Positions 15,999-19,615 of a stretch of 64,000 nt of DNA are shown piece by piece (position 1 is the stretch's first letter; each line of letters begins with the position of its first letter). The stretch lies in the NCBI RefSeq assembly GCF_000214355.1, contig NC_015577.1, forward strand, positions 2,967,389-3,031,388, given 5' to 3'. The position numbers and the translations under genes are program-made. This DNA comes from Leadbettera azotonutricia ZAS-9. GTDB taxonomy: Bacteria; Spirochaetota; Spirochaetia; Treponematales; Breznakiellaceae. The notes beneath the pieces were generated by a model, which had not been told where the DNA came from, searched no databases, and saw nothing but the letters and a program-made list of their open reading frames with translations.

Positions 15999-18137
15999 TT
16001 ATTTTATAGCGTCAAACCCGATTTTTAGATCATCAATTATATCATCAATATGTTCAACGCCGATAGAAAAGCGTATAGTATTGAACTTGATCCCTGATTC
16101 CAGAAGTTCCGCCTCGCTCATCTGGGAATGGGTGGTAGATGCCGGATGGATAACCAGGGACTTTACATCCGCTACATTGGCAAGCAGGGAAAAGAGGCGC
16201 AGCTCTTCAGCAAAAAGCTGCGCTTTTTTTGCATTCCCTTTAATCTCGAAGGTGAAAATCGATCCTGCCCCCCGGGGGAAGTACTTTTTATACAGACCGT
16301 GATCCCTGTGACCTTCCAGCATGGGATGGTTCACCTGCTCGACCTGGGGATGACCCTTGAGGAATTCCACCACCTTCCCGGCGTTCGAAACATGGCGCTC
16401 CACCCGGAATGAAAGGGTCTCAAGCCCCTGAAGAAAGAGGAATGCGTTAAACGGCGAGAGGGATGCGCCGGTATCCCGAAGCAAGGTTGTCCGGGCCTTT
16501 ACGATATAGGCGGCATTTTTCACGGCATCGGTAAAAACGACACCGTGGTAGCTGGGGTTGGGTTTTGAGAGGCCCGGGAACTTGTCGTTCTGGGCCCAGT
16601 CAAAGCGGCCGGCATCCACGATGACGCCGCCTATGGAGGTACCGTGTCCGCCTATGAATTTCGTGGCCGAATGGACCACCACATCCACACCCCAGTCAAT
16701 GGGCGTGAGAAGATACGGCGTGGCAAAGGTGTTGTCCGCAATAACGGGAATACCGTGCCGATGAGCGATAGCAACGATTTTTTCAATATCCACGATGCTC
16801 GAATTGGGGTTGCCCAGGGTTTCGAAAAAGATAGCTTTGGTATTTTCTTTTATGGATTTTTCAAAATTGGCCGGATCGCTTCCATCCACAAAAGTCGTTT
16901 CGATTCCTGTATCCTTAAGGGTGTTGGCAAAAAGATTATATGTGCCACCATAAATCTGATTGTCCGAAATAATGTGATCCCCCGCCCTGGCGATATTCTG
17001 CACTGCGTAGGTAGTGGCGGCAGCGCCCGATGCAGTGGCCAGGGCAGCAATGCCTTTTTCAAGCGCAGCGATACGCCGCTCGAACACATCCCAGGTGGGG
17101 TTCATGATACGGGTATAGATATTCCCGTTTTCCGTAAGGGCAAAGCGCCCCGCCGCGCTTTCGGATGTGGGAAACACATAAGATGAGGTCTGGTAAATGG
17201 GGACTGCCCGGGCATCGGTGGCGGAATCAGGACTTTCCTGGCCCGCATGGACCTGCACAGTCTCGAAACGGTAACTTTTGTTGCTCACAATAAAATCTCT
17301 CCTTCGTCTGTAAAAAGCGCTGGCCTTGCCGGATCCGAAATCCTGCATATGCCGGACCCCCTTAGAGTTCGCATCAGGGGACGCTCCGTAAATTTTCCGA
17401 TCTTCCCCGACAGGGCAGGCCAGGGTACAGATCCCGCAGGGATAGCGGAGTTCTTTTTTTAAGAACTGGTGATATTTTGCACAGGCATATTTGTCCATCT
17501 CGGGTACAGGATATTTTTCCACCGCAGCCCCGGGCAGGGGGTTAAACACCCCCATTGGGCAGTTCTCGCGGCAGAGCCCGCAATGATTGCAGAGAGCTTT
17601 TTTCTGCATCGGGTCCGGCGGAATCGCCGCATCCGTGATGATTGTTACAAGCCGCTGCCGGGGGCCGAATTCGGGGGTCAAAAGGCAATGGTTGTCGCCT
17701 ATGGTCCCAATCCCCGCAAGGCGCGCTGCGATTACCTGGGAAAATGACGCCTCAGGCTTTTCCACCAGGGCGGAAATATCCCCATAGCCATCCCGGGGAT
17801 AGAAGAAGGCCCGGTACCCCAGGCCGTTGAGCAGGGCGCCCAGGCGGTAACCAATTTCGTCCAAAAGCCGGTTCGTCGTATTGTAGGCTTCGGAATACAC
17901 CACCGAGGGTGTGGACTCCAGCATGGGCAGAAAAATTTGAACTGCCCCGGAGATCACGGTCCGTGCCCAGGGCCAGATAGTCTGCGGGTAAAAGGCGCCT
18001 TCCGGCAAGCTGTCGTAGCCCTTGGGCGGCAAAGGCCTTTCAGTCTCCCATCGTTCCACATTGGAAAAGCCTATAAGCCGTAAGCCGAATCCTTTCCCTT
18101 CTTTGATGATTTTTTCACGAAGTTCCAAATCTGCCAT
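15999..18137 (-). CDS. Fusion: QueG-like 4Fe-4S protein joined to O-acetylhomoserine sulfhydrylase (MetY)
   Basis: One uninterrupted frame of 712 residues. Residues 1 to about 275 form a QueG-like domain with two ferredoxin motifs, CNHCGLCRENCPMG near 181-194 and CGICTLACPVG near 234-244. Residues 284-712 form a full-length MetY-type PLP enzyme starting VSNKSYRFETVQVHAGQE, with the PLP lysine in HSATKFIGGHG. MetY makes homocysteine from O-acetylhomoserine and sulfide. The junction is unusual: GAAGGAG at 17305-17299, 10 nt before a GTG at 17288, would start a normal 429-residue MetY. The locus may therefore yield both a fusion and a free MetY, or may be two genes whose separating stop was lost. 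It is the first gene of the operon. The ATG at 18137 follows AAGGAAAG. Confidence 0.88.
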   Translation of the reverse strand: MADLELREKIIKEGKGFGLRLIGFSNVERWETERPLPPKGYDSLPEGAFYPQTIWPWARTVISGAVQIFLPMLESTPSVVYSEAYNTTNRLLDEIGYRLGALLNGLGYRAFFYPRDGYGDISALVEKPEASFSQVIAARLAGIGTIGDNHCLLTPEFGPRQRLVTIITDAAIPPDPMQKKALCNHCGLCRENCPMGVFNPLPGAAVEKYPVPEMDKYACAKYHQFLKKELRYPCGICTLACPVGEDRKIYGASPDANSKGVRHMQDFGSGKASAFYRRRRDFIVSNKSYRFETVQVHAGQESPDSATDARAVPIYQTSSYVFPTSESAAGRFALTENGNIYTRIMNPTWDVFERRIAALEKGIAALATASGAAATTYAVQNIARAGDHIISDNQIYGGTYNLFANTLKDTGIETTFVDGSDPANFEKSIKENTKAIFFETLGNPNSSIVDIEKIVAIAHRHGIPVIADNTFATPYLLTPIDWGVDVVVHSATKFIGGHGTSIGGVIVDAGRFDWAQNDKFPGLSKPNPSYHGVVFTDAVKNAAYIVKARTTLLRDTGASLSPFNAFLFLQGLETLSFRVERHVSNAGKVVEFLKGHPQVEQVNHPMLEGHRDHGLYKKYFPRGAGSIFTFEIKGNAKKAQLFAEELRLFSLLANVADVKSLVIHPASTTHSQMSEAELLESGIKFNTIRFSIGVEHIDDIIDDLKIGFDAIK
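17286..17305 (-). promoter_or_regulatory. Internal ribosome-binding site and GTG start for MetY
   Basis: Inside the fused frame, GAAGGAG is followed after 10 nt by GTG (17288-17286), the codon at which MetY homology begins. It looks like the normal start of a stand-alone metY and would allow separate translation of the sulfhydrylase. Confidence 0.6.
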
Positions 18138-18191: not shown

Positions 18192-18277
18192 GTTGATATG
18201 CATACAAAACAGCCGAGCCGGTGTGGATGAAGCACTCCTCGGTATCAGGCGCCCCAGATCGAATATCTAAATACTCT

Positions 18278-18450
18278 GCTTTATAAGGCACTGGACAAAT
18301 TTTAGGTCAGAACCGCTCTATTTTAACGGAGCGTTGCTGCATTTTATGAGAGGGTCGCCGTATTTTTGGGGATGGCCCCTATTTCTTATATGGATGCCTC
18401 CATGTTTTGGAGGACAGCCGACATTTTTTAAGAGAAGGTCCGCTGGAGGA
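18278..18450. repeat. Decayed tandem repeat with an exact 21-nt period
   Basis: About eight degenerate units follow each other with exactly 21-nt spacing. The trinucleotide TTA (or a one-base variant) stands at 18281, 18302, 18323, 18344, 18365 (TTT), 18386, 18407 (TTG) and 18428. A typical unit is ATTTTAACGGAGCGTTGCTG plus one base. A multiple of three suggests a coding origin. On the minus strand the frame reads heptads such as ATLS-stop-NA and ATLR-stop-NR. On the plus strand it runs in frame into the protease tail at 18440. This fills the middle of the 521-bp stretch between 18138 and 18658, which has no intact gene. Confidence 0.6.
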
Positions 18451-18529
18451 CATGGATCTCATGGTGGACCCCACTAAACAGAAGCTGGTCGGCGCCCACG
18501 GCGATCAAGCTTTGGGGCTTATCTACTAA
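18440..18529 (+). pseudogene. C-terminal remnant of a clan AA aspartic protease-like gene
   Basis: The frame reads PLEDMDLMVDPTKQKLVGAHGD and a few more residues before TAA at 18527-18529. From memory this resembles the C-terminus of retropepsin-like clan AA aspartic proteases found in many bacteria. The catalytic D-[ST]-G part and the rest of the N-terminus are missing and replaced by the 21-nt-period repeat, which is in frame but interrupted by TGA at 18347. No ribosome-binding site precedes the only ATG (18452). It is best read as a gene remnant. Confidence 0.45.
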
Positions 18530-18658: not shown

Positions 18659-19615
18659 TTATTGCGTTATGGCCACAATCTTAGTTGCGTAGCTGCTCCA
18701 TCCGTCCGCCGCTTTATAGGCAGCCAGGATGCTTTCGGGCACCTGGATTGCCAGATCGGCATGGGTACCGTAAAACGCCACAACACCCAGTGTTGCCAAA
18801 GGCGTTGTGTCCCGTAGTATCGTCATGTTTTTCAGGCTGCTGCAGCCATAGAACGCACCGACGCCGATAGAAGTAACACCGTTGGGAATGGTAGCCGAGG
18901 TCAGGCTGTAGCAGTTAACGAACGCCAATTCGCCAATAGCGGTCAGCGTATCCGGCAGGATGATGGACACAAGCCGGTCATAATTCGTTCTGGCATATGT
19001 GGCGCTTTCGGATATATCTTCAATACTGGTGAGGGTGCAGCCGCTCAGATCATAGGTAACATATTTATCATTTGGAATCGCGGCAAAAAGTTTGTGCAGG
19101 GGGTCGGCGCCTTCGCTGTTGCTTCCCGAAAGGTTCACAGCACCGGAAATGGCGACAACAAGGGGAGCATAGCTCGTGGTTCCGCCGCTTGCCGCTGCGA
19201 TAAGGGTTTTCATATCGCCTATATTATCTGGAGTAATAACCACATTTGTGTCTTCCTTTTGCAGTGTCAGGTCTTTGCCTATAACATTGCCGCCGGTTAC
19301 CGCGAACTCCGCACTGGTATTGGTTTTGTAGCCGCTCTTGGACGCTTCGATGGTGTATGTCCCTGCGCCCGCGCCGGTAATGGTATAGGTTCCGTCCACC
19401 GCGGTGCTTACCGCAACCCCTTGGGCTGCAGCGCCGTTCTTAAGCTGCACTGATGCGCCGCTTAGGCCGCCTGAGGCATCGCTGCCTCTAATCGTTCCGC
19501 TGATCTGGTATGTGACTACATCATCGCCTGCGCCAAGGCCGCAGCTCGAAAACACAAGGCCGAATGCGAGCAAGGCCGCCGCTATTCCCCTTAGTAAAAC
19601 TTTGTTTTTCTTCAT
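18659..19615 (-). CDS. BspA-like leucine-rich-repeat lipoprotein with a carboxypeptidase-regulatory-like domain
   Basis: A 318-residue surface or periplasmic lipoprotein. The signal peptide ends at lipobox VFSSC (Cys near residue 25). Residues about 36-120 form a CarboxypepD_reg-like beta domain (ISGTIRGSDASGGLSGASV, DGTYTITGAGAGTYTI). Residues about 210-290 hold LRR_5 (BspA-type) repeats such as IILPDTLTAIGELAFVNC and TIPNGVTSIGVGAFYGC. BspA-like proteins in oral and gut treponemes take part in adhesion to host proteins and other bacteria. The ATG has GGAAG upstream. It is a short member of the family with only two or three LRR units, and it stands alone. Confidence 0.85.
   Translation of the reverse strand: MKKNKVLLRGIAAALLAFGLVFSSCGLGAGDDVVTYQISGTIRGSDASGGLSGASVQLKNGAAAQGVAVSTAVDGTYTITGAGAGTYTIEASKSGYKTNTSAEFAVTGGNVIGKDLTLQKEDTNVVITPDNIGDMKTLIAAASGGTTSYAPLVVAISGAVNLSGSNSEGADPLHKLFAAIPNDKYVTYDLSGCTLTSIEDISESATYARTNYDRLVSIILPDTLTAIGELAFVNCYSLTSATIPNGVTSIGVGAFYGCSSLKNMTILRDTTPLATLGVVAFYGTHADLAIQVPESILAAYKAADGWSSYATKIVAITQ

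Follow-up and report, generated by a model that had tools for sequence, protein, structure and literature searches.

The degenerate 21-nt repeat described here is a decayed fragment of an array that belongs, elsewhere in the same genome, to a gene we call X. It lies in the window, by which we mean the whole 64,000-nt stretch of DNA analysed (C1:2967389-3031388, in a single-contig genome of 3,855,671 bases), and it was either copied from the array behind the X gene at C1:2667180-2667665 or originated together with it. In many bacteria a tandem array of 21-nt units, mostly palindromes, lies behind the X gene, and one residue of the protein covaries with the bases of the array. The window array is a remnant of such an X-linked array; on balance we favour a reading in which X recognises its own array by binding DNA in a sequence-specific manner.

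The window array and its sister array

The features concerned are as follows.

18274..18437, + strand: orphan 21-nt array fragment of about eight degenerate units (autocorrelation z 6.9; colinear 80% match to C1:2667757-2667920).
18240..18273, + strand: uncertain, weakly matching upstream extension of the array (aligns poorly, though without gaps, to the sister-array locus L002).
18437..18529, + strand: last 30 codons and stop codon of a retropepsin-like (Asp_protease_2) gene, with the catalytic part missing (23/29 identity to an intact relative).

Autocorrelation over positions 18278-18460, set against 1000 dinucleotide shuffles, gave an identity of 0.475 at lag 21 (z 6.9) and of 0.496 at lag 42 (z 6.6), and none of the 1000 shuffles attained the lag-21 value when lags 3 to 63 were all counted. 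The array of eight drifted units that the original prediction proposed from the letters alone is thus real; its units start at 18277, 18298, 18319, 18340, 18361, 18382, 18403 and 18424. Tandem Repeats Finder reported no row over it at a minimum score of 30, and Rfam gave no match at gathering score for either the window array or the sister-array locus L002. The RNA folding predicted for the window array carries little weight (plus strand z -2.4, minus strand z -0.9). A profile search with X found no trace of the gene in the window; the array, with X absent beside it, is an orphan relic, and this copy is probably inert.

The array sequence recurs once in the genome, at C1:2667757-2667920, where 80% identity extends over 164 bases and the two copies are colinear unit by unit. 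This sister array is longer than the window fragment and begins directly 3' of the stop codon of a 162-aa ORF, which is X (L002:924-1412; C1:2667180-2667665). A single-unit pattern matched the genome 97 times in forward and 64 times in reverse orientation, against 79 and 86 times for a reversed control, and given such similar counts we rejected a dispersed family of single units. With a three-unit sequence model, only the two known arrays fell below E 0.01, the next matches lying at E 0.19 and weaker; inspection by eye of a weak model match at C1:1094648 led to a third array, built of units of other sequence and standing behind a homologue of the 162-aa ORF, and thereby to gene X. The genome-wide unit search suggested at the outset therefore yielded a second copy with the same units but no scattered single ones. 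The accompanying idea that absence of the unit from related genomes would refute the array turned out to be misleading, since the arrays of relatives share the period and not the units, and the window units recur once, in the same genome.

A scan of 464 kb of this genome, made up of 20 stretches of which four were deliberately placed on X loci, returned six 21-nt and two 22-nt periodic signals. Five of these eight (three of 21 nt and both of 22 nt) coincide with X genes; of the other three, two fall within long open frames and one is the window array, the only orphan seen in the scan. The array behind the X copy at C1:2822446 (L074) has a 22-nt instead of a 21-nt period, and the 21-nt repeats at C1:2206541 and C1:3520072, within long open frames, are probably coding and unrelated to X. 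Dyad symmetry was significant in none of the five X-linked arrays of this genome that were tested (p 0.08 to 0.49), and these arrays may have decayed too.

The window fragment is cut on both sides and adjoins a truncated protease gene. The match to the sister array stops where the protease tail begins, which places the junction at about 18437. Positions 18440-18526 align with residues 109-137 of an intact 137-aa retropepsin-like protease (locus L003; Pfam PF13650, E 2e-8), with 23 of 29 residues identical, and the predicted clan AA protease C terminus is thereby confirmed. The catalytic Asp-Thr-Gly motif stands upstream in the intact relative and is absent from the window, which keeps only the last 30 codons. 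No further protease pieces were found in the genome beyond the window tail; among the other 38 relatives searched with the window sequence, matches were to the tail part only and occurred in four genomes; L004, L005 and L006 come from further relatives with stretches resembling the tail. The claim that one plus-strand frame runs through the array into the protease fared less well: the frame entering the tail is not open throughout the array, whose first units contain stops, and it does not match the frame in which X would continue into the sister array, so that the in-frame join is most likely a matter of chance.

Two observations concern the surroundings. A BspA-type leucine-rich-repeat lipoprotein gene lies near both array copies (window 18659-19615, minus strand; L002 from 2052, plus strand) and is perhaps tied to recombination. 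In an unusual fusion, the 712-aa ORF at window 15999-18137 (minus strand) begins with a 4Fe-4S part that looked QueG-like on inspection and continues as a Cys/Met-metabolism PLP enzyme (PF01053, E 5e-135).

Distribution of X and its linkage to arrays

Carriers of X made up 12 of the 58 relatives' genomes searched, 47 of 195 at family level and 17 of 392 at phylum level; the genome studied here has six copies, all on one 3.86-Mb contig. A scan of species genomes found 241 X relatives, and the 79 loci kept for analysis come from spirochaetes, Fibrimonas, Planctomycetaceae, several Bacteroidota, Myxococcales and Azoarcus, that is, from five phyla besides the spirochaetes. We take the genomes of these 79 loci to be largely termite-gut MAGs. 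X was not found in the plasmid, phage and viral-contig collections searched. A literature search, made in a library with few subscription journals and aimed in part at other systems, returned no described combination of a gene with a 21-bp array.

An array was called among the 79 loci where the best period among 10-40 was 21 with a score above 0.4, near-duplicates being counted. By this measure a 21-nt array lies downstream of X in 55 of the 68 loci with enough sequence behind the gene, and upstream in only 4 of 73. In 52 further loci, which lie outside the 48 pairs used for the covariation analysis and were selected for enough downstream sequence after near-identical X had been removed, a stricter cut of 0.5 found an array in 28, none in 21 and too few units in 3. 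Distant X homologues from other spirochaete families are likewise followed by 21-nt arrays in some cases (L163, L164, L167, L170, L171, L179 and L180) and not in others. A terminator-like site separates X from the array in 11 of 52 loci, against 5.7 expected.

X is a protein of about 150-160 residues, acidic (median pI 5.3), and its better AlphaFold model is all-helical with a pLDDT of 94.4 (84.5 for the other model). Pfam, NCBIfam, PADLOC and PHROGs gave chance-level matches only, and the X profile found nothing better than E 0.018 among PDB sequences; weak family matches, among them Cas11 type IV (E 0.019) and TPR_6 (E 0.006), were not accepted as relatives. Foldseek returned no PDB match with E<=0.001 for two X models, and no viral match for the second, which does not exclude known folds. 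The best VIA-align match, a designed helical protein (Z 6.5, 4.1 A over 67 residues), says little. The conserved stretch of X reads LTPxER-x-xxLPKMG, and residue 40 comes directly after its invariant Glu-Arg.

The first ORFs downstream of the arrays are co-directional with X in 33 of 41 cases, and these 33 fall into frames 0, 1 and 2 relative to X in 16, 7 and 10 cases, a distribution that is not decisive. Among the first ORFs are genes for AlwI-type restriction enzymes, DNA methylases, GmrSD, Abi_alpha and a KAP ATPase, as well as glycyl-tRNA synthetase, elongation factor and transporter genes; as housekeeping genes stand among these neighbours too, we do not claim a defence role. At five loci (L053, L054, L064, L078 and L121), the array end is followed within about 40 nt by the start of a restriction-modification or GmrSD gene, mostly in the X frame. 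The families listed for genes upstream of X are mostly housekeeping.

Palindromic units on a fixed step

The step of the arrays is strikingly constant: successive units are spaced by exactly 21 nt in 576 of 605 cases, while copy number ranges from about 5 to 35 and unit sequence varies from locus to locus. The description of the window repeat as conserved in length and not in sequence was thus correct and holds for the whole class of arrays; its reading as a non-coding repeat growing in fixed units came close to the mark. Tested against permuted columns, 40 of the 55 arrays have palindromic units at p<=0.05 and 27 have them at p<=0.01. Averaging 41 arrays with a significant dyad, centred on that dyad, gives the shared profile ATYGRNKYTC-N-GARMNYCRAA. 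The arms diverge between arrays yet remain complementary. Periodicity gives each palindrome another dyad 10.5 bases from the first, so that half-sites alternate once per helical turn.

Covariation of residue 40 with the array arms

Among 48 X-array pairs, columns of X were compared with half-site positions in 939 tests. The strongest associations link column 40 with -4 (z 10.3), column 40 with -5 (8.6), column 123 with -8 (8.4) and column 40 with -3 (7.6), the signal of column 123 resting on four Gln carriers. In 955 comparisons of X proteins sharing less than 65% identity, the arms have a similarity of 0.566 when residue 40 agrees and of 0.295 when it differs, and the next best of 117 X columns gives a difference of 0.112. 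With 29 representatives kept at 75% identity, column 40 remained associated with -5 (p 0.0002) and -4 (p 0.0026) but not with -3 (p 0.076); its summed z was 11.6, against 4.8 for the next of 106 columns. Within these representatives the base at -5 is A in all 8 Arg carriers with a called base and C in 8 of 12 His carriers.

Unit similarity also tracks X identity (Mantel r 0.29, p 0.0005). On the X tree the labels of the pair -4,-3 switch 15 times or more (mean after shuffling 22.6), and one shared ancestor therefore fails to explain them. In a small and mixed check set of 18 new arrays with dyad p<=0.05, the rule for -5 (His C, Arg A, Gln A), worded after the counts had been seen, agreed with 7 of 9 called cases; at -3, 3 of 3 Arg carriers had C, against the trend of the training pairs, and the rule makes no prediction for carriers of Lys, Asn, Ser or Met. 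Given this link between residue 40 and the bases at -5 to -3, X is probably a DNA binder of its own array.

Discussion

Judging from sequence, the array is probably a DNA target of the X encoded beside it. A 21-bp unit spans two helical turns and would then offer two inverted half-sites around the TC-N-GA core, and bound copies of X would be aligned on one face of the DNA, where they could build a cooperative nucleoprotein row. Residue 40 would determine which bases are favoured at -5 to -3 of the half-site, with residue and array changing together, and in our reading it may contact the major groove directly. The acidity of X, unusual for proteins of this kind, and its lack of a fold or family tie to any known DNA-binding protein count against such a role. 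The mixed outcome of the small check set, the non-significant dyad symmetry of the X-linked arrays tested in this genome and the 21 of 52 further loci without an array weigh on the same side. The task of the complex is a matter of guesswork, our guesses being a chromosomal tether, a silencer or a self-regulating cluster of sites.

The array might instead act as RNA, its tandem-hairpin transcript binding X as an antitoxin, sponge or guide. We regard this as unlikely, while giving it more credit than the remaining alternatives. The array sits directly behind X in many loci, fold-back of the X strand is strong (z<-2 in 43 of 50), and covariation with residue 40 cannot by itself tell RNA from DNA. 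The opposite strand, however, folds equally well (42 of 50), the X strand being better in only 30 of 50, and G-U pairs are in little excess (544, against 435 A-C pairs; share 0.556 against 0.524 expected). The missing strand bias and the small G-U excess favour DNA over RNA. Strong terminator hairpins, moreover, stand between the X stop codon and the array in several Bacteroidota loci, and the conserved TC-N-GA core is self-complementary, which a loop would not need.

If another host protein bound the array, X would be a passenger or partner only. An acidic protein without a recognisable DNA-binding domain would suit that role, but the covariation is concentrated on a single residue, in the most conserved stretch of X, and we consider the idea improbable.

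The notion that the array is the relic of a heptad-repeat protein, here extending the frame of X, takes its appeal from the fact that 21 nt make seven codons, from the depletion of stops in the X frame of the arrays (128 observed, 269 expected) and from a dyad register that is mostly fixed relative to that frame, with the dyad at the second codon position in 30 of 41 arrays. The codon-position signal of a coding region is absent: column variability in 48 arrays is 0.695, 0.713 and 0.688 bits at the three positions of the X frame, the third being no more variable than the others. A stop codon closes the X frame in 54 of 54 loci (TAA 31, TAG 11, TGA 12), and some arrays stand behind strong terminator hairpins. 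The shared palindrome skeleton is nearly stop-free by itself in the usual register and possibly accounts for the depletion. This part of the original prediction is not supported, and we give it very little credence. Equally improbable is a neutral minisatellite near X by chance, which the degenerate units and non-significant dyads of this genome would suit, but which is at odds with the linkage to X across phyla, the one exact period, the palindromes and the covariation with X, and is contradicted by the preference for the downstream side (55/68 against 4/73).

DNA binding by X, our preferred reading, has its best mechanical analogues in iteron-Rep and ParR-parC, neither of which defines membership. 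Iterons are tandem sites of about 17-22 bp bound by one Rep protein; their cooperative binding depends on helical phase, and cooperativity is lost once half a helical turn is inserted between two sites (PMC4980987). X arrays, if bound as we propose, would likewise be tandem sites for one protein, and a similar need for helical phase would explain the fixed 21-bp step. In contrast to an autonomous iteron replicon, the six X genes lie on one 3.86-Mb chromosomal contig, most of them with arrays, and none was found in the plasmid collection; the arrays have 5-35 mostly palindromic units of locus-specific sequence. Rep has a winged-helix fold; X has no Pfam match and no Foldseek match at E<=0.001, a result that does not exclude that fold. 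ParR and parC also pair a small protein with a cognate repeat cluster and show paralogue-specific recognition (PMC9426499). The X array, by comparison, lies behind its gene, the X model is helical without a ribbon-helix-helix family match, and no ParMRC-type motor ATPase turned up among the first 25 entries of the family lists for its neighbours (38 downstream, 45 upstream).

Two RNA-based systems bear a looser resemblance. ToxIN, a type III toxin-antitoxin system, likewise places a small protein gene next to tandem repeats and a terminator, with the repeats preceding the toxin gene and the terminator between them (PMC8860590); X arrays are overwhelmingly downstream of the gene, and X, all-helical in its model, has no convincing match in Pfam, NCBIfam, PADLOC or PHROGs to a ToxN-like endoribonuclease or any other known toxin family. 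TIGR-Tas also sets an array beside a single protein gene, with unit sequences fixed within a locus and differing between loci, and its units consist of two alternating repeats with 9-nt variable spacers (PMC12045711). Many X arrays are instead near-identical over all 21 nt (L098, L113, L124, L144 and L151) and show no variable 9-nt spacers. None of 18 X members had a Pfam hit to the Nop domain of TIGR-Tas, although a fold search without matches cannot exclude that domain.

More tentatively, and with less confidence than we place in DNA binding by X, we suggest that X and its array may together constitute a chromosomal module, as yet undescribed, that spreads horizontally and lets a protein mark the locus encoding it. 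Residue 40 and the palindrome arms would co-diversify, so that where one cell has several X copies, each would recognise its own array and not those of the others. If this is right, a drifted repeat in the window leads to a widespread gene-and-array module, spread across several bacterial phyla in gut communities, that lacks a described family, fold or function in the libraries searched and whose protein and array sequences co-vary. Because the covariation pinpoints one residue and three bases, the central claim is open to a simple binding assay. Such a module would also explain how a repeat can keep its exact length while its sequence is lost. The interest of the window array lies in this larger system, of which it is a decayed orphan.
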